This document shows positions 5,512-61,872 of a stretch of 64,000 nucleotides of DNA, piece by piece. The notes under the pieces are model-generated. The model searched no databases. It worked only from the letters and a program-made list of their open reading frames with translations, and was not told the DNA's origin. The position numbers and the translations under genes were made by a program. The stretch lies in assembly GCA_016742175.1 (NCBI GenBank), contig JACVCH010000010.1:1-64000 (forward strand), read 5' to 3'. Source of the stretch: Rhizobiaceae bacterium. Its GTDB lineage: Bacteria > Pseudomonadota > Alphaproteobacteria > Rhizobiales > Rhizobiaceae. Each line of letters begins with the position of its first letter. Within the stretch, counting starts at the first letter, position 1.

Positions 5512-6282
5512 CTACTCGTCGGTGCCCAGATAGGCGGCGATCACGGCCGGGTCGGAGCGAACCGCGCGCGGGTCGCCATCTGCGATCTTGCGGCCGAAAT
5601 CGAGCACCACGATCTTGTCCGAAACGTCCATGATGACCGGGATGTCGTGCTCGACGATCAGGAAGGTCATGCCCATTTCGGCGCGCACGCGCTGGATCAG
5701 CGCCGTCATGGCGGCCTTTTCGGTCTTGCTCATGCCCGCCATCGGCTCGTCGAGCAGGATGAGCTTCGCCTTCTGCATCAGGGCGCGGCCGAACTCGATG
5801 CGCTTCTGCTGGCCGTAGGGCAGTTGGGAGGGTTTTGCGTCGGCGACGTCGTCGAGGCCGAGATAGGCGAGGATTTCGCGCGCCTGCGCTTCGGCCTCCG
5901 CCTCTTCCGTGCGGGTCGCGCCGGTGCGGAACATGCCCTGCAGAAGGCCGGACGAGCCCTTGAGATAGGCGCCGACGAGAAGGTTTTGCAGCACCGTCAG
6001 GCCGGAGAACAGGGCCAGATTCTGGAAGGTACGGGCGATGCCGTGCCGTGCGATGCGGTGGGCTTTGAGGCCGGTGATGGTCTCTCCGGCGAAACGGATG
6101 GCGCCGTCCGTTGGCCTGTACATGCCGGTCACGCAGTTGAACATCGTCGTCTTGCCGGCGCCGTTGGGGCCGATCAGGGCCGTCACCTTGCCTTCGTCGA
6201 GTGAGAATGAGACGTCGTCCAGCGCGACGATGCCCTGGAAGCGCATGTGAAGCGCATCGATCTCGAGAAGCGGCCGGGTCAT
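5512..6282 (-). CDS. livG: LIV-type ABC transporter ATP-binding protein LivG
   Basis: A 256-residue ATPase with Walker A GPNGAGKTT, signature region LPYGQQKRIEFGRAL, Walker B LILLDEPMAG and the switch His in IVEHD. The sequence ARTFQNLALFSGLTVLQN is typical of LivG, one of the two ATPases of branched-chain-amino-acid-type importers. The upstream livF stop overlaps its start (ATGA near 6279). It is the last gene of livKHMFG. The context of CoA ligases and hydratases suggests the importer serves a small organic acid or amide rather than amino acids. Confidence 0.93.
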   Translation of the reverse strand: MTRPLLEIDALHMRFQGIVALDDVSFSLDEGKVTALIGPNGAGKTTMFNCVTGMYRPTDGAIRFAGETITGLKAHRIARHGIARTFQNLALFSGLTVLQNLLVGAYLKGSSGLLQGMFRTGATRTEEAEAEAQAREILAYLGLDDVADAKPSQLPYGQQKRIEFGRALMQKAKLILLDEPMAGMSKTEKAAMTALIQRVRAEMGMTFLIVEHDIPVIMDVSDKIVVLDFGRKIADGDPRAVRSDPAVIAAYLGTDE

Positions 6283-28625: not shown

Positions 28626-29411
28626 CTATTTTCCCTTCCAGACCGGGTCGCGTTTTTCCGCGAACGCCTTGAAGCCTTCGAGGCCGTCTTCGGAATTGTA
28701 AAGCCTGTCGACCGTGGCGAACTGGCGCTTGGTGATGCGGTTCATCGCGGTCTGGAAGCTTTGGCCTTCGGCCTCGCGCGCGACTTCCTTGATGGCGGCG
28801 AAGACGAGCGGCGGGCCGGAGGCGAGGAGGCGGGCGACGTCCCAGACGCGCTCTTCCAACTGGTCGGCCGGATGGACCTCGTTGACGAGGCCCCAGCGAT
28901 GGGCCTCCAGCACATCCATCCAGCGGCCCGTCAGGAGCATGTCCATCGCGACGTGATAGGGGATGCGGCGCGGCAGCTTGATCGTCGCGGCATCGGCCAG
29001 CGTGCCGGCCTTGATCTCGGGCAGGGCGAAGCTCGACGTCTCGGACGCGTAGATCAGGTCGCAGGACAGCGCCAGTTCGAACCCGCCGCCGACCGCCATG
29101 CCGTGAACGCAGGCGATGACCGGCTTGTTCATGTCGCGCAGTTCCTGCAAACCGCCGAACCCGCCGACGCCATAATCGCCGTCGACGGCATCGCCATCCG
29201 CCGCCGCCTTCAGGTCCCAGCCGGCCGAGAAGAACTTGTCGCCGGCGGTTTTCACGATCGCGACGCGCAGGTCGGGTTCGTCGCGGAAGGCCTTGAAGGT
29301 TTCGCCCAGCAGCCGCGAGGTCGCAAGGTCGATCGCGTTCGCCTTCGGCCGGTCGAGCGTCACCTCCAGGATCGCCCCCTCGCGGCGGGTTTTGACGACG
29401 TTGTCGCTCAT
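28626..29411 (-). CDS. caiD: Carnitinyl-CoA dehydratase (crotonobetainyl-CoA hydratase), CaiD-like
   Basis: A 261-residue crotonase-family enzyme. Beyond the general fold, the segments EVTLDRPKANAIDLATS, FFSAGWDLKAAADGDA, GGFELALSCD and AFAEKRDPVWKGK at the very end closely follow E. coli CaiD. It would interconvert crotonobetainyl-CoA and L-carnitinyl-CoA. It overlaps the upstream acyl-CoA ligase gene by ATGA and is the last gene of the proposed carnitine operon. Confidence 0.82.
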   Translation of the reverse strand: MSDNVVKTRREGAILEVTLDRPKANAIDLATSRLLGETFKAFRDEPDLRVAIVKTAGDKFFSAGWDLKAAADGDAVDGDYGVGGFGGLQELRDMNKPVIACVHGMAVGGGFELALSCDLIYASETSSFALPEIKAGTLADAATIKLPRRIPYHVAMDMLLTGRWMDVLEAHRWGLVNEVHPADQLEERVWDVARLLASGPPLVFAAIKEVAREAEGQSFQTAMNRITKRQFATVDRLYNSEDGLEGFKAFAEKRDPVWKGK

Positions 29412-31570
29412 GGGGTTTTCTCCAAGATTTCAAAATCGCCGACGAGCAGCGCATCGGCGATGAACGCTCCGCGCTCGCAGACGATCAGCGGGTTGATGTC
29501 GAGTTCGACGATCCGGCCGGCATTGTCGACGACGAAATCGGAAATGGCGAGGATCGTGTCGATCGCGGCGGCGACATCGCCTTTCGGGCGGCCGCGATAG
29601 CCGTCGAGAAGCGGGAAGAGTTTCAGCGAGCGCAACGCGGCCTCGATCTCGTCGCGGGTTGCGGGGAGGAGAAGCGTTGCGGTGTCGGCTAGGAGTTCGA
29701 CGAGAACGCCGCCGGAGCCGATGGTGAGCAGCGCACCGAAGACGGGATCGGGGGAGATGCCGACGATGAGCTCGGCGATCGCGTTTTCGATCATGCGCTC
29801 GACATAGAGGCCGGTGCCGAGGGGGAGGAGGGCGGAGGCGGCGGCTTCGATCTCGGCTTGGGTGTGGAGGTCGAGGCGGACGGCGCCGTGCTCGGATTTA
29901 TGCGCGAGGCCGAGTGATTTGAGTGCGACGGGGAGGCCGAGGGTCCGGGCTGCGGCGAGGGCTTCGGGGACGGAGGATGCGCGGCGGCCGGCGGGGATGG
30001 GGAGGCCTTGGGCTGCAAGGAGGGATTTGGCGGATGCTTCGTCGAGGGGGCGCCGTTCCTCTCCCCCTTTGAGGGGGAGAGGTGCCGAGCCACGCGAGGC
30101 GGAGTGGGGGTTACGCGCCGACGCCTCCCCCCCACTCCGTCCCGGCTTCGCCGGGCCACCTCTCCCCCCGTTGGGGGTAGAGGAAAGATCGCGCCAGGCT
30201 CGCCCCACAAACGCCGCCTCCGCCGCCGCCGCCATCGCTTCCTCGATGCCGTGCAACGGCACGATGCCGCGCGAAAAAAGTTCGTCCGCGTGCTCTTCCG
30301 GCAAATTTTCCGCCATCGACGCCACGATCGCGCCGCGCGCGTCGTTGGCCCTCAACGCCGCCTCGAACGCACGCACCGTCGGCCACCAGTCGGCATCCGA
30401 GCAGCGGTCGGTGCGGGGGAAGTCGAGCACCAGCATGTCGAGGTCGAAGCCGCCCGCCACCATCGCCGTGAAGGTCGCGGTCATGGCCGGCTCGTCGTTC
30501 CAGATGAAGGTGTGGTAGTCGAGCGGGTTGGCAACGGCGACGAGGGGACCGAGCGTCGCCTTCACCCGGTCGCGATGCGTCTCGCCGAGCGGCGGGAAGG
30601 TCACCGCGCGCCCGTCGGCCGCGTCCGCCATCACCGAAGCCTCGCCGCCTGAGCAACTCATCGAGGAGAGCCGGTTGCCTGAGAGCGGGCCGACGCCATG
30701 AAGCAGCTTCAGCGTTTCGAGGAATGCCGGGATCGAGTGGACGCGCGCGATGCCGAGACGCTTCAGGAAGGCATCGGAGCCGGCGTCCGAACCGGCCAGC
30801 GAGGCCGTGTGCGAGATCGTCGCGGCCCGGGCCTGCTCCGAGCGGCCGACCTTCATGGCGACGATCGGCTTTTTCAGTTCGCGGGCGCGGTCGGCGAGGC
30901 GCTCGAAGCCGGGGATGGAATCGAAGCCCTCGATGTGGAGGCCGAGCACGGAGACGCGCTCGTCCTCGATCAGGCCGAGCGCCATCTCCGACAGACCGGT
31001 CTGGGCCTGGTTGCCTGCCGTCATCAGGAACGCGATGGGCAGGCCGCGCTTCTGCATCGTGAGGTTGCAGGCGATGTTGGACGATTGCGTGATGATTGCC
31101 GCGCCGCGCGTGCCGGGTGCCAGCCGTCGGCCGCCATGCTGGTCGGGCCAGAGCAGCGCGCCGTCGGCATAGTTGATCAGCCCGTAGCAGTTCGGCCCGA
31201 TGACGGGCATGTCGCCGGCGGCCTCAATGAGTTCCCGCTGGAGGCGTGGGCCGTCCGGGTCGTCGGCCTCGAGGAAGCCGGCAGCGAAAGAGATCGCGCC
31301 GCCTGCTTTGCGTGCGGCAAGCTCGCGCAGGATGTCGATCGTGGCAAAGCGATTGACGCCGATGAAGGTCGCGTCGGGTGGAACTGGCAGGTCGGCGATG
31401 GAGCGGAAGGCGGGGATGCCTTCGATGTCTGGTTTCGTTGGGTGGATGGGCCAGATGTGGCCGGTGAAGCCCATCTTGAGCGATTGCCTGACGACGTTGG
31501 TCGCGAAGGCGCCGCCGCCGACGACGGCGATGGAGCTGGGGTGCAGGAGGCGGTGCAGGCGGGCCGTCAT
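29408..31570 (-). CDS. NDP-forming acyl-CoA synthetase with an in-frame palindromic insert
   Basis: A 720-residue ligase of the acetate-CoA ligase (ADP-forming) superfamily: CoA-binding domain (1-130), ligase domains with the phospho-His motif ISHTASLAGSD (His254), and a C-terminal ATP-grasp domain (about 505-720, ending in EVDINPLI-like ELDINPLIVCE). Residues about 463-505 (STPNGGRGG..LPLKGGEER) are not family sequence; they are the translation of a 129-bp palindromic element inserted in frame in the linker before the ATP-grasp domain. It probably activates carnitine or gamma-butyrobetaine. It is coupled to caiD. Confidence 0.88.
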   Translation of the reverse strand: MTARLHRLLHPSSIAVVGGGAFATNVVRQSLKMGFTGHIWPIHPTKPDIEGIPAFRSIADLPVPPDATFIGVNRFATIDILRELAARKAGGAISFAAGFLEADDPDGPRLQRELIEAAGDMPVIGPNCYGLINYADGALLWPDQHGGRRLAPGTRGAAIITQSSNIACNLTMQKRGLPIAFLMTAGNQAQTGLSEMALGLIEDERVSVLGLHIEGFDSIPGFERLADRARELKKPIVAMKVGRSEQARAATISHTASLAGSDAGSDAFLKRLGIARVHSIPAFLETLKLLHGVGPLSGNRLSSMSCSGGEASVMADAADGRAVTFPPLGETHRDRVKATLGPLVAVANPLDYHTFIWNDEPAMTATFTAMVAGGFDLDMLVLDFPRTDRCSDADWWPTVRAFEAALRANDARGAIVASMAENLPEEHADELFSRGIVPLHGIEEAMAAAAEAAFVGRAWRDLSSTPNGGRGGPAKPGRSGGEASARNPHSASRGSAPLPLKGGEERRPLDEASAKSLLAAQGLPIPAGRRASSVPEALAAARTLGLPVALKSLGLAHKSEHGAVRLDLHTQAEIEAAASALLPLGTGLYVERMIENAIAELIVGISPDPVFGALLTIGSGGVLVELLADTATLLLPATRDEIEAALRSLKLFPLLDGYRGRPKGDVAAAIDTILAISDFVVDNAGRIVELDINPLIVCERGAFIADALLVGDFEILEKTP
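30056..30184. repeat. Family B palindromic element inside the acyl-CoA synthetase gene
   Basis: The ends TTCCTCTCCCCCTTTGAGGG and its complement (right end near 30158-30184, with a few mismatches) define a 129-bp element, exactly 43 codons. Inside are the CCCCCACTCCGTCCCGG-type arms shared with copies at 32976-33124 and 57091-57358. The frame stays open through it, so the element is translated. Boundaries are good to a few bases. Confidence 0.85.
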
Positions 31571-31606
31571 GAATCGGCCAGAGTGGAAGCGGGGCGCTCG
31601 ACGTTA

Positions 31607-31754
31607 CCCCCCTCTGTCCTGCCGGCCGCCCTGGCCCGAGCCACGGGTCTCGGCCCGTCCTTCGGACCCCCCGCGAGGGGGGAGATTATGCTCGTCGCCG
31701 AAACCGCGTGATCTCCCCCCTCGCGGGGGAGATGTCCGGCAGGACAGAGGGGGG
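31607..31754. repeat. Family A palindromic element with 40-bp insert (148 bp)
   Basis: Begins CCCCCCTCTGTCCTGCCGG and ends with its complement. Relative to most copies, the left arm has about 40 extra bases (a GGCCCGAGCCACGGGTCTC-containing segment), present also in the copy at 51086-51233. Loop type 1 (CTCGTCGCCGAAACCGCGTG). It lies between the acyl-CoA dehydrogenase (upstream) and the synthetase of the carnitine operon. Confidence 0.9.
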
Positions 31755-31779
31755 CGCGAAGGGGTGCTGCCATGACCGA

Positions 31780-32943
31780 CTAGCCTCCAACCGCCCTCAA
31801 CAGCGCCCGGCTGATGATATGCCGCTGGATCTCGCTCGTGCCTTCCCAGATGCGCTCGACCCGCGCGTCGCGCCAGATGCGTTCCAGCGGAAGCTCGTCC
31901 ATCAGTCCCATGCCGCCATGGATCTGGATCGCCTCGTCGGCGACGAAGGCGAGCATTTCGGTGGCCTTCAGCTTGGCCATCGCCATGTCCATGTCGGTCA
32001 CGGTGCCGGCGTCGTATTTCCAGCCGGCTTCCATCAGCATCAGGTCGGCGGCCTTCAGTTCCGTCGCCATGTCGGCGAGCTTGAAGGAAACGCCCTGGAA
32101 CTTGCCGATCTTCTGGCCGAACTGCTCGCGATTGGCGGCCCAGTCGACGGCGTGGCCGAGCGCGCGTTCGGCGCGGCCGATGCAGGTGGCGGCGACCTGC
32201 AGGCGCGTCGCACCCAGCCAGGAATTGGCGACCTCGAAGCCTTTGTGGACTTCACCGAGGACCTGAGACGCGGGCAGGCGGCAATCGTCGAATTCGAGGA
32301 TGGAGTTGGTGTAGCCGCGATGCGAGACGTTGCGGTAGCCGTCGCGGACGGTGAAGCCCGGCGTGCCCTTGTCGACGAAGAAGGCAGTGATCAGCTTTTT
32401 GGGGCCGCGCGGTGTTTCTTCCTCGCCGCTCGCCATGAAGACGATGGCGAAGTCAGCGATATCGGCATGGGAGATGAAGTGCTTGGTGCCGTTGAGCACC
32501 CAGTCGTCGCCATCCTGTCGCGCGCTCGCCTTCATGCCGCGCAGGTCGGAGCCGGCGCCGGGTTCCGTCATGGCGAGGCAATCCCATTTCTCGCCGCGGA
32601 TGCAGGGGAAGAGATAGCGCTCCTTCTGCTCGTCCGTGCCGGCGAGAAGGATGTTGGACGGGCGCGCGACGCAGGTCCAGTGCAGCGCGTAATTGGCGCG
32701 GCCGAGTTCCTTTTCGTAGAGCAGCCAGGTCGGCGTATCGAGCCCCGCGCCGCCGACCTCCTCGGGCATGTTGGCCGCGTAGAGGCCGGCCGCGATGGCC
32801 TTGGCCTGAAGCTCCCTGACGAGGTCCACGCGCAGATGGCCGGTGCGCTCGACCTCCGCCTCGTGCGGATAGAGCTCGTTCTCGACGAAGGCGCGGGTGG
32901 TCTCGACGATGAGGCGTTGTTCTTCGGTGAGCGAGAAGTTCAT
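31780..32943 (-). CDS. Acyl-CoA dehydrogenase, putative gamma-butyrobetainyl/crotonobetainyl-CoA type
   Basis: A 387-residue flavoprotein with all usual elements: LAMTEPGAGSDLRGMK, NGTKHFISHAD, QIHGGMGLMDELPLERIWRDARV and a canonical IWEGTSEIQR whose Glu is the base. It could oxidise gamma-butyrobetainyl-CoA to crotonobetainyl-CoA, the substrate of the downstream CaiD-like hydratase; E. coli CaiA belongs to the same superfamily. This assignment rests on context. Palindromic elements lie on both sides of the gene. Confidence 0.85.
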   Translation of the reverse strand: MNFSLTEEQRLIVETTRAFVENELYPHEAEVERTGHLRVDLVRELQAKAIAAGLYAANMPEEVGGAGLDTPTWLLYEKELGRANYALHWTCVARPSNILLAGTDEQKERYLFPCIRGEKWDCLAMTEPGAGSDLRGMKASARQDGDDWVLNGTKHFISHADIADFAIVFMASGEEETPRGPKKLITAFFVDKGTPGFTVRDGYRNVSHRGYTNSILEFDDCRLPASQVLGEVHKGFEVANSWLGATRLQVAATCIGRAERALGHAVDWAANREQFGQKIGKFQGVSFKLADMATELKAADLMLMEAGWKYDAGTVTDMDMAMAKLKATEMLAFVADEAIQIHGGMGLMDELPLERIWRDARVERIWEGTSEIQRHIISRALLRAVGG

Positions 32944-34204: not shown

Positions 34205-34243
34205 TTGGTTTGCTCCACTTGGCGGAGGTCGCACTCTACGTTG

Positions 34244-34353
34244 CCCCCCTCTGTCCTGCCGGACATCTCCCCCGCGAGGGGGGAGATCAGTCTCGTCATC
34301 GACACCGCGTGATCTCCCCCCATGCGGGGAGATGTCCGGCAGGACAGAGGGGG
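34244..34353. repeat. Family A palindromic element (110 bp)
   Basis: Arms CCCCCCTCTGTCCTGCCGGA and complement, with inner palindromes around CGCGAGGGGGGAGAT. Loop type 1 (CTCGTCATCGACACCGCGTG). It lies between the BKACE gene and cdhA, inside the presumed carnitine operon. Confidence 0.9.
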
Positions 34354-34385
34354 CGTGAAGGATCGCAACATTCTCCATTTGGTTC

Positions 34386-43902: not shown

Positions 43903-43943
43903 TTTTGCACGCTCCAACCGATGAAGGGCTGCGCCTCGTCGCG

Positions 43944-44059
43944 CCCCCCTCTGCCCTGCCGGGCATCTCCCCCGCATGGGGGGAGATCAGCTAATCGCAC
44001 ACCTTGAGACGCGTGATCTCCCCCCATGCGGGGGAGATGCCCGGCAGGGCAGAGGGGGG
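43944..44059. repeat. Family A palindromic element (116 bp)
   Basis: Arms CCCCCCTCTGCCCTGCCGGG and complement: both arms carry matching changes against the consensus (GTCC to GCCC, GGAC to GGGC), a compensatory pattern. Loop type 2 (AGCTAATCGCACACCTTGAG..). It lies between allE and allA. Confidence 0.9.
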
Positions 44060-44079
44060 CAACGTAGGGGAGCATCACG

Positions 44080-46871: not shown

Positions 46872-46902
46872 GGGTTGATGACGATGTGTATGCCCTACGT
46901 TG

Positions 46903-47014
46903 CCCCCCTCTGTCCTGCCGGACATCTCCCCCGCACGGGGGGAGATCACGCGCGTCATCTATGGAGGCTAATCTCCCCCCTCGCGGGGGAGATGCCCGGC
47001 AGGGCAGAGGGGGG
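46903..47014. repeat. Family A palindromic element (112 bp)
   Basis: Left arm CCCCCCTCTGTCCTGCCGGA, right arm GCCCGGCAGGGCAGAGGGG: the arms differ at two positions, showing partial decay or mosaic origin. The loop is in the opposite orientation to most copies. It lies between uraH and xdhA. Confidence 0.88.
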
Positions 47015-47053
47015 CGTGAAGGGGCGCAGCCGTAAACCGAACGAGGTCGCAAA

Positions 47054-48517: not shown

Positions 48518-48537
48518 AATGTATCTGCTCCACGCCA

Positions 48538-48649
48538 CCCCCCTCTGGCCTGCCGGCCATCTCCCCCTCAAGGGGGGAGATCATGCGGTGTCGGCGACGA
48601 GACTAATCTCCCCCCTCGCGGGGGAGATGTCCGGCAGGACAGAGGGGGG
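48538..48649. repeat. Family A palindromic element (112 bp)
   Basis: Arms CCCCCCTCTGGCCTGCCGGC / GTCCGGCAGGACAGAGGGGG, loop type 1 in reverse orientation. It separates xdhA and xdhB, whose products form one enzyme, so it lies inside an operon. Confidence 0.9.
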
Positions 48650-48682
48650 CGCGAAGGATCGCAACGTTTCGGGGGCAGGCCG

Positions 48683-51085: not shown

Positions 51086-51233
51086 CCCCCCTCTGTCCTG
51101 CCGGCCGCCCTGGCCCGAGCCACGGGTCTCGGCCCGTCCTTCGGACACCCCGCAAGGGGGGAGATTATTCTCTTCGCCGACATAGCGTGATCTCCCCCCT
51201 TGCGGGGGAGATGTCCGGCAGGACAGAGGGGGG
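51086..51233. repeat. Family A palindromic element with 40-bp insert (148 bp)
   Basis: Same extended left arm as the copy at 31607-31754, nearly identical over the additional 40 bases. Loop is a type 1 variant (CTCTTCGCCGACATAGCGTG). It lies between xdhB and xdhC. Confidence 0.9.
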
Positions 51234-51260
51234 CAACGTAGGGTGCAGTGCCTCCCACAC

Positions 51261-55636: not shown

Positions 55637-55665
55637 GGTATCTGTGACGATTGCGCTCGACGTTG

Positions 55666-55781
55666 CCCCCCTCTGTCCTGCCGGACATCTCCCCCGCGAG
55701 GGGGGAGATCAGCTAGTCGCAAAGGTCGAAGCGCGTGATCTCCCCCCATGCGGGGGAGATGTCCGGCAGGACAGAGGGGGG
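55666..55781. repeat. Family A palindromic element (116 bp)
   Basis: Consensus arms; loop type 2 (AGCTAGTCGCAAAGGTCGAAGCGCGTG). The same loop, reversed and with one difference, is in the copy at 61737-61852. It lies between guaD and the glycerate kinase gene, and its frame stays open into that gene. Confidence 0.9.
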
Positions 55782-55816
55782 CGCGAAGGATCGCAAACGC
55801 TGCGCGGTGCCTCGCG

Positions 55817-57381: not shown

Positions 57382-58848
57382 TCACCCCGCCATCAGCTTC
57401 CTCACCGCCACCATGTCCGCCACGAACCGCTCGCGCTCCGCCTCGGCCTCATCACGTTCGCGGATGCGCAGGATGAAGGAGGGGTGGATGGTGATGAAGA
57501 CGCGCAGGCCGTCCTCGCGCGTGACGACCTCGCCGCGCATCTTCGTCACCGGGATCGCCTTGCCGAGCAGCGACTGCGCGGCGGTCGCGCCGAGCGCGAC
57601 GGCGAGGTCGGGCTTGATGAAGCCGAGTTCCTGCTCCACCCACCAGCGGCAGGCCTGCACCTCGCCGGCATTCGGCTTGGAATGGATGCGGCGCTTGCCG
57701 CGCGGCTCGAACTTGAAGTGCTTCACCGCATTGGTGACGTAGGTGATGCGTCGGTCGACGCCGGCTTCGTCGAGCACGCCGTCGAAGACCTTGCCGGCCG
57801 GGCCGACGAAGGGCTTGCCGGCAATGTCCTCCTGGTCGCCCGGCTGTTCGCCGACGAAGACGATGCGCGCGTCCTGCGGTCCCTCGCCGAAGACGGTCTG
57901 CGTCGCGTCGCGCCAGAGCGGGCAGCGGCGGCAGCCCTCGGCCTGCCTTTGCGCCTCGTCCAGCGAGCGGGTGGGCGCCTCGGCGTCGGCAGGCGTTTCC
58001 TTCGCCGACCAGTATTTCTCCTGGACCTTCGCATGATGCGGCGCCGGCACGGTGGGCATCCTTTCGATCATCTCCCTGGCGGCCCTGTCCGCGCCCTTGA
58101 TCAAATCGGGGATCAGCGTGGCCTCGGGCAGGTTCTTCCAGTATTTCTTCGGCATCTCGGCCTGCATCGCCTTCACCTTCAGCCGCGCGGGGTTGAAAAT
58201 GTTTGTGAAATAGGTGCGCCACAAATCCTCGGTCGCATCGGCCGCCGGCGCGTCGGTCTTCGAGGCCGGCGGGCCAATGGTCAGGGTCTCGCCATCCCAT
58301 TCGGCCGTGCCCTTCGGCGTCAGGATCGTCCAGGCCATGCCGGTGAAGCGGCGCACGAAGAAGGGCGCGTTGCGCTCGACGATGAAATGGTCGGGCTCGA
58401 ACCACGCCGCATAGCGAATGTCCTCGCCTTCGCCGACTTCCACGAACCGCACGAAGGCGCGCATCTTGTGGATGTCGCGGCGCACGGACTTTTCCATCTC
58501 GTAGAGCTTCATCACGTCCGGATCGGACGCGATCTTCAGCAGGTTCGGCTCGGTGCGCAGCCGGAAGAGGATGCGGTAGAGGAGGGCGAAACGGGCCGGG
58601 TCCGAATGACAGATCACCGCCTCGGCGCGGTCGATGAACTCGCGCGGGACGTTGAGCGTGACGCCGGTCGCAACGGCGGGGAGGGGCGTGTCGGCGGCGA
58701 AGAGGTCGGAGTTGTCGCCGACGGTCCAGACGATGTCGGCGGGCGGGATGTCGTTGGTGGCGAGACGGCGGGCGGCGTCGCGCCAGGCGGCGAAGTCGGT
58801 CTGGGAGGCGAGGGGGGCGGTTTGGAGGGTTGTGGATGTGGGGATCAT
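57382..58848 (-). CDS. udgX: DUF4130 domain fused to UdgX-type uracil-DNA glycosylase
   Basis: A 488-residue protein. Residues 1-270 match the DUF4130 domain that accompanies radical SAM repair proteins; residues 295-488 are a uracil-DNA glycosylase fold. VGEQPGDQEDIAGKPFVGPAG is the active-site region and KRRIH (385-389) is the UdgX loop, whose His forms a covalent bond to the abasic site in characterised UdgX. CRRCPLW is an iron-sulfur-type Cys cluster. It lies downstream of the radical SAM gene, separated by a family A element. Confidence 0.9.
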   Translation of the reverse strand: MIPTSTTLQTAPLASQTDFAAWRDAARRLATNDIPPADIVWTVGDNSDLFAADTPLPAVATGVTLNVPREFIDRAEAVICHSDPARFALLYRILFRLRTEPNLLKIASDPDVMKLYEMEKSVRRDIHKMRAFVRFVEVGEGEDIRYAAWFEPDHFIVERNAPFFVRRFTGMAWTILTPKGTAEWDGETLTIGPPASKTDAPAADATEDLWRTYFTNIFNPARLKVKAMQAEMPKKYWKNLPEATLIPDLIKGADRAAREMIERMPTVPAPHHAKVQEKYWSAKETPADAEAPTRSLDEAQRQAEGCRRCPLWRDATQTVFGEGPQDARIVFVGEQPGDQEDIAGKPFVGPAGKVFDGVLDEAGVDRRITYVTNAVKHFKFEPRGKRRIHSKPNAGEVQACRWWVEQELGFIKPDLAVALGATAAQSLLGKAIPVTKMRGEVVTREDGLRVFITIHPSFILRIRERDEAEAERERFVADMVAVRKLMAG

Positions 58849-58872
58849 CGGGAGGCTTTGCGCCCTGTCACG

Positions 58873-58984
58873 CCCCCCTCTGTCCTGCCGGACATCTCCC
58901 CCGCGAGGGGGGAGATTAGCCTCGTCATCGATACCGCGTGATCTCCCCCCATGCGGGGGAGATGTCCGGCAGGACAGAGGGGGG
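58873..58984. repeat. Family A palindromic element (112 bp)
   Basis: Consensus arms with loop type 1 (CTCGTCATCGATACCGCGTG), nearly the same as the copy at 34244-34353. It lies between the radical SAM gene and udgX. Confidence 0.9.
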
Positions 58985-59016
58985 CAACGTCGAGCGAACC
59001 CATGACAGATCCCGCG

Positions 59017-61701: not shown

Positions 61702-61736
61702 GCTGTGGCTCCGCTGAAATGTTGCGATCCGTCGCG

Positions 61737-61852
61737 CCCCCCTCCGTCCTGCCGGACATCTCCCCCGCATGGGGGGAGATCACGCGCTTCGATCTTTGCG
61801 ACTAGCTGATCTCCCCCCATGCGGGGGAGATGTCCGGCAGGACAGAGGGGGG
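61737..61852. repeat. Family A palindromic element (116 bp)
   Basis: Arms CCCCCCTCCGTCCTGCCGGA and complement (one arm mismatch). Loop type 2 in reverse orientation, one base different from the copy at 55666-55781. It lies between the aminotransferase and the glutamine-synthetase-like gene. Confidence 0.9.
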
Positions 61853-61872
61853 CAACGTAGGGCGCGAACATC

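Follow-up and report, generated by a model that had tools for sequence, protein, structure and literature searches.

Palindromic repeats of several types in frame at the alpha/beta junction of a fused acyl-CoA synthetase in a Rhizobiaceae bacterium and its relatives

How do palindromic repeats enter proteins? This was the question drawn from the present locus by an earlier, sequence-only reading, and it is better put as why one protein junction takes such repeats again and again. The locus lies in a stretch of 64,000 nucleotides (the window) from a Rhizobiaceae bacterium (assembly GCA_016742175.1, contig JACVCH010000010.1, positions 1 to 64,000), in which a palindromic repeat of a family here called B sits in frame inside the gene of a fused nucleoside diphosphate (NDP)-forming acyl-CoA synthetase, between the alpha and beta halves of the enzyme. 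The reading that we favour, with a probability of roughly 0.78, is that a dispersed palindromic repeat occupies the alpha/beta junction in frame and would be read through as extra, unstructured linker. The features concerned, all on the minus strand, are given below with the basis of each in brackets.

29408..31570, minus strand: fused NDP-forming acyl-CoA synthetase gene, 720 codons encoding 720 amino acids (open reading frame)
30044..30193, minus strand: alpha/beta junction or linker, W459 to D510, 50 residues (4xyl chain matches, length survey, predicted local distance difference test or pLDDT)
30058..30183, minus strand: in-frame palindromic repeat of family B, inverted, 126 nt (folding, own-genome matches)
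30130..30183, minus strand: first arm, one repeat unit (own-genome matches; set boundaries)
30110..30129, minus strand: spacer of 20 nt between the inverted units (set boundaries)
30058..30109, minus strand: second arm, the inverted copy of the unit (match of the element to its own reverse complement)

That the element lies inside an open acyl-CoA synthetase gene, as had been proposed, is borne out by the reading frame and by Pfam, in which CoA_binding_2 (residues 13-132), Succ_CoA_lig (156-290) and ATP-grasp_5 (504-708) all score above their cut-offs and stand in the order expected of NDP-forming acyl-CoA synthetases; relatives in the PDB agree. Two inverted units, each of some 55 nt, and the 20-nt spacer make up the repeat. 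It aligns with its own reverse complement over 130 nt (73%), the minimum free energy is -99 kcal/mol for the surrounding 141 nt (z -7.2, with none of 200 shuffles as good), and its matches elsewhere in the genome often span positions 4-62 or 80-136 of a 141-nt query. How many codons it fills depends on the edge drawn, because the 126-nt inverted repeat begins on a second codon position; the 43 codons claimed earlier hold exactly for the 129 nt from 30056 to 30184 (codons 463-505) and not for the inverted repeat itself. A known RNA family was discarded as an explanation, the covariance models of Rfam 15 giving no match up to an E-value of 0.1 over 29400-31800.

The place that the repeat occupies in the protein is a particular one. 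Separate chains of the archaeal structure 4xyl flank the junction, 4xyl_A matching residues 5-359 and 4xyl_B residues 497-709, so that the repeat stands at a seam where some relatives have two chains. In an AlphaFold2 model of the window protein (39 sequences; mean pLDDT 81.8, predicted template modelling score 0.81), residues 468-505 fall below a pLDDT of 50 and are without secondary structure, and the flanking helices end at residue 460 and start at 511. If translated, extra residues in this predicted unstructured loop would plausibly be tolerated by the enzyme.

The linker was then compared among relatives, organised as loci with L numbers, in which L001 is the window, L061 is Mesorhizobium sp. 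YIM 152430, L065 is the Hyphomicrobiales metagenome-assembled genome 53_S67 and L135 is Mesorhizobium ciceri; the named relatives, L061-L140, are the best 80 of 241 found. Both anchors, G441 and D510, were present in 97 of the 101 loci tried (L014, L015, L020 and L021 were dropped), and five duplicates among the 97 (L002, L003, L005, L006 and L009) leave 92 distinct rows. The anchors are 40-43 residues apart in 60 of the 97 loci and 69 apart in the window. The clean 43-residue gap against homologues that had been anticipated is thus not what the alignment gives: the net gain is only 26-29 residues, which leaves some 14 residues of the host linker missing or replaced. With regard to a target-site duplication, the criterion for a miniature inverted-repeat transposable element, no linker was recognised that was empty of a repeat and otherwise unaltered, and host linker residues are missing here. 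Linker length is a multiple of three in 96 of the 97 loci, the exception being L007 (genome G002), which carries the nearest relative of the window gene in the tree. Its W and L codons are separated by 28 nt, 14 of them identical to one end of the repeat of a second palindromic family, A, in L098, and the frame is broken, which could reflect two chains, a disrupted gene or a sequencing error within a run of G. At 2814-2902 of this locus the beta frame is open (274 amino acids), with a GTG codon just after the G-rich stretch.

Family B gave 137 blast matches in the window's own genome, merged to 79 units at no fewer than 40 places, a lower bound, 40 of 68 candidates having been scored. Two units are present at 27 of the 40 places, three at six and one at seven. 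An open frame runs through the repeat, with at least 20 codons on each side, at 30 of the 40, so the open frame alone is unsurprising. When codon usage is scored on both flanks in one open frame, the acyl-CoA synthetase copy reaches 0.25, the next best 0.09 and the other open-frame places less than 0; this copy alone scores as inside a gene, the element being otherwise mainly intergenic, as described earlier. Mobilisation by a transposase associated with repetitive extragenic palindromic (REP) sequences, a RAYT, was discarded, no Y1_Tnp gene having been found in the window's genome (one genome, 96.1% complete, in a search whose controls matched in 5 of 14).

The junction of the window is not alone in carrying a palindrome. 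Junction palindromes with dispersed relatives occur in 18 of the 92 distinct rows, namely the window and 17 of the 80 named genomes (L001, L061, L063-L067, L070, L071, L073, L074, L076, L077, L080, L084, L087, L089 and L098). All 18 keep the frame, and all 18 have dispersed relatives in their own genomes, eight being queried by their own linker and ten by a linker of similar type from another row. They fall into type B (L001, L061, L065), B with its units rearranged (L087), A (L098), one further type (L063), Am (L070, L073, L076, L077), Am in the other orientation or Am- (L064, L089), C3 (L066, L067, L074, L080) and P30 (L071, L084). Their status as elements rests on likeness to dispersed copies and not on the folding z-score, which is weak in some of them (L070 -1.7, L071 -1.9, L067 -1.9, L064 -2.3). 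The repeat begins about 14 nt after the W codon in L098 and about 38 nt after it in L063. Four further rows were left uncounted: L119, which has a repeat hit, a common linker length and a resemblance to a half copy, and L062, L072 and L075, whose copies look decayed by eye.

Two of these relatives bear directly on what the segment is. The linkers of the window and of YIM 152430 agree at 94.7% over 152 nt, the same element at the same site, which makes an assembly error unlikely. The more distant L065 carries GGRGGPAKPGRRGG at this point, and the presence of such residues in distant homologues, proposed earlier as grounds for rejecting an insert, therefore nearly occurs; however, the DNA of this segment has 46 matches in its own genome, and it is a dispersed repeat there too, so that an origin of these residues as ancestral protein was discarded. 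Mesorhizobium ciceri has eight dispersed C3-type matches and none in the linker. Outside the gene, the 80 named loci hold 58 repeat clusters in 462,475 bases, none of them in frame within a gene (the threshold for the minimum flank score being 0.15 and the best value outside the gene 0.04). The same search hits 18 linkers among L061-L140, the 17 counted and L119; 17 of the 18 are also matched by another library entry, and five by the window's two intergenic copies alone. A contrast of density between the 18 linker clusters and the 58 elsewhere was dropped, the library being derived from linkers.

Trees of the gene without its linker were built from 92 rows, and a careful tree from 50, without six long rows of the outgroup and 36 rows of the Mesorhizobium core. 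Presence and absence of an element need 12 changes on the tree and the typed states 16. Inside Aminobacter, L080 (C3) is sister to L073 (Am) with support 98/86, so that one Aminobacter has another repeat type, and one has no element. Close relatives with and without an element are also seen in L064 against L068 and L069 (100/95), in L071 against L086 (100/100) and in L001 against L007. Under approximately unbiased (AU) tests, monophyly is rejected for every shared type (Am- p 0.002, B p 2e-5, C3 p 1e-40, P30 p 2e-74), with p 2e-5 for the C3 pair and p 0.048 for L001 and L061 alone. We read this pattern as that of a site where repeats land recurrently and turn over.

The main rival is a single old insertion in the ancestor of the group, followed by divergence, in-place inversion and gene conversion with other genomic copies, with no new insertions. 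It is unlikely on balance, but several observations speak for it: by eye, many elements begin some 6-14 nt past W and reach almost to D510, the linkers of L084 and L071 match along their whole length (77% over 173 nt), and at an intergenic site nearby the repeat cores seem to have inverted in place. Against it stand the AU results, the brevity of matches between types (at most 54 nt, except L064 against L084, 69% over 110 nt) and the repeat of L063, which sits in the middle of its linker between stretches of host sequence. Steady conversion is also disfavoured. Linkers of the Aminobacter clade match that of L073 at 90-94% over full length, whereas own-genome copies match these linkers at no more than 80% over more than 100 nt, or 92-93% over 53-54 nt; wholesale gene conversion with other copies is hard to reconcile with linkers that are nearer each other than to the copies in their own genomes.

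Several points nevertheless weigh against recurrent insertion and read-through. Without 14 rows of short or unclear linker, presence and absence need only five changes, and part of the pattern therefore fits one old insertion with losses. The groups submitted to the AU tests were defined with the first tree already in view. Typing was done by hand, and the types share stretches of arm. The opposite orientations of Am and Am- were at one stage taken as proof of re-insertion, an argument withdrawn because cores apparently flip in place elsewhere. The L064 query has no match in the genome of L071, in which the L084 query does match. A long linker need not be an element either: that of L004 (genome G036), with 57 residues between W and the TDEA motif, was discarded as one, its own genome holding no relative elsewhere. 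The 18 linker hits of the repeat search arise partly by construction, the library having been made from linkers; the variable alignment may partly cause the low pLDDT of the loop; and the comparison of arms that follows involves two species groups, in which pairs share rows.

What is conserved in the element was compared in seven species pairs that share it, six of the seven coming from four rows. Summed over the seven, linker codons differ at positions 1, 2 and 3 in 23, 37 and 34 cases, the flanks changing mainly at position 3; because the three positions change alike, the peptide appears to be unconstrained. Differences in the arms amount to 2.1-5.2%, whereas third positions in these genes differ by 25-34% (Fisher p 8e-11 to 7e-8). 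This contrast stands when G/C sites of the arms are set against fourfold-degenerate sites (six pairs, p 6e-8 to 1e-5), a comparison that discards low mutability of G and C as the cause of slow arms. Spacer differences within the Aminobacter clade are 15-26%, indistinguishable from third positions, so the element there is not a recent arrival; between L001 and L061 the spacer is also slow (1/20, p 0.012). The arms would thus seem to be maintained, inside the gene too, by something acting on the nucleic acid.

Such maintenance could serve a function in DNA or RNA, for example as a ribosome-slowing hairpin at the seam or as a site for an RNase or another protein, with retention of the repeat being adaptive. 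We hold this to be distinctly improbable. The arms, some 6-12 times slower than third positions in linkers whose codon positions change alike, speak for it, as do the location at a domain seam, its occupation by several types and an excess of change at unpaired over paired sites in two of five pairs (p <0.05). However, changed stem pairs are often broken (1/2, 2/6, 3/6, 3/4 and 3/4), which leaves selection on pairing as such unproven; the core Mesorhizobium clade manages with no element in the linker; and intergenic family A copies, in 14 sequences of one site, have slow arms as well (0.08-0.09 against 0.23 at third positions of the acyl-CoA synthetase), so that the constraint may be general or come from repair between arms. 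A bolder form of the idea, in which the seam would be a standing port for palindromes in Phyllobacteriaceae and their kin, unlike repeats being recruited as interchangeable RNA pause structures, for instance to slow the ribosome between two halves that fold independently, with the peptide irrelevant, is offered as speculation at long odds.

It is very improbable that the window gene is a decaying copy with a frame left open by luck. The frame break at the junction of the sister genome G002 and the frequency of open frames through family B repeats might suggest decay, but third positions change most in both halves of the gene, and in the alpha half the differences from L061 over 300 codons (17, 11 and 97 at positions 1, 2 and 3) indicate purifying selection; moreover, the frame through this element is open in YIM 152430 too, and all but one of the surveyed linkers are in frame. 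Selection of the Gly/Pro/Arg-rich peptide as such is scarcely credible: the segment is common to two species of the window's group, but differences summed over the seven pairs fall on all three codon positions, and other species have unrelated peptides in its place.

Under the favoured reading of a dispersed repeat read through as linker, repeats would land in the seam between the subunits, presumably by insertion, and only in-frame copies would survive, the fused enzyme being required. Any peptide would do, and copies would be replaced, inverted or left to decay into ordinary linker, their arms being kept either by selection on the hairpin or by repair between arms. The junction would then behave like spacer DNA inside a gene, its DNA held in a coding frame at the level of the nucleic acid and not of the protein, and it may offer a route by which linkers between fused subunits are lengthened. 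Some of the junction repeats are in named culture-collection strains, culturable carriers being Aminobacter niigataensis DSM 7050 and A. aganoensis DSM 7051, and close relatives have, lack or have swapped the element; natural orthologues free of an element occur, for example, in Mesorhizobium soli and M. ciceri.

Family A, which gave 103 matches in the window's genome (40 of 138 candidate places scored), is dense in this half of the window, with palindromes at 31607-31755, 34243-34356, 43943-44060, 46902-47015, 48537-48650, 51086-51234, 55665-55782, 58837-58985 and 61736-61853. An intergenic family A repeat of 154 nt contains a 62-nt core that occurs in two orientations. This core site is found near 5870-6030 in L082, L095, L102, L103, L104, L109, L124, L125, L131, L134, L135, L137 and L140, and near 6086-6240 in L073. 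Pairs of cores match ungapped at 0.50-1.00 in one orientation and 0.24-0.45 in the other (99.9th percentile of the shuffled null, 0.42), which looks like in-place inversion of the core between the arms. Four family A copies lie elsewhere in the 80 loci; three have cores unlike this one, and one, in L128, is seemingly the same site in a shorter locus. The downstream intergenic site, occupied by family A in many rows of the Mesorhizobium core, is taken in L107, near 5857-5966, by an unlike palindrome, possibly a same-site replacement outside genes too.

Among known systems, Rickettsia palindromic elements (RPEs) and REPs have been described in frame inside proteins (PMC2229807, PMC3767692, PMC3733652, PMC2759123), and RPE proteins are listed in PMC2635572. 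The parallel with Rickettsia drawn by the sequence-only reading holds as a likeness. Both are dispersed palindromes of 100-150 nt (here 126 nt at no fewer than 40 places), and some RPEs, like the present repeat, lie in frame within the gene of a conserved protein; RPE inserts have been modelled at solvent-exposed places, and the present repeat falls in a predicted unstructured loop (468-505) at the seam of the 4xyl chains. The likeness is one of arrangement, and the repeat is not filed as an RPE: it is GC-rich, occurs in other bacteria, and belongs to a junction with several types across genera, which no longer fits the single insertion into one protein that had been supposed. In PMC3767692, different RPE groups are described close to a single site in orthologues; a common origin is favoured there for RPE-4, -6 and -7 where sites are shared, but insertion hotspots are called ‘still not negligible’. 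Here, unlike in the RPE work, AU tests oppose a single origin per shared type and the arms were compared with synonymous sites.

Intragenic REP clusters of the GTAG and CGTC kinds are reported in PMC3733652 to encode 43-82 residues in varied targets, many of them in DNA synthesis and repair; they too lie within genes, but they go with RAYTs, and no Y1_Tnp was found in the genome studied here. The enterobacterial RU-1, RU-2 and RU-3 and the Correia elements of Neisseria are described as inverted repeats, small and mobile, that can lie in frame within genes, and in passages of PMC2229807 and PMC2759123 no report was noticed of one junction with several families. In a literature search covering titles and the starts of abstracts, with subscription papers mostly outside it, no report was recognised, among the papers listed, of palindromes in this enzyme or in a rhizobial protein. 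Rhizobia have palindromic mosaic repeats of their own, the Rhizobium-specific intergenic mosaic elements (RIME) of Sinorhizobium and Rhizobium, which are not known to occur inside proteins. In-frame palindromic inserts as such are thus already known, and what appears to be new is one protein junction occupied by unlike repeats. For the question raised in Rickettsia, whether shared sites are hotspots or the remains of one old insertion, the several types at this junction make an answer testable.
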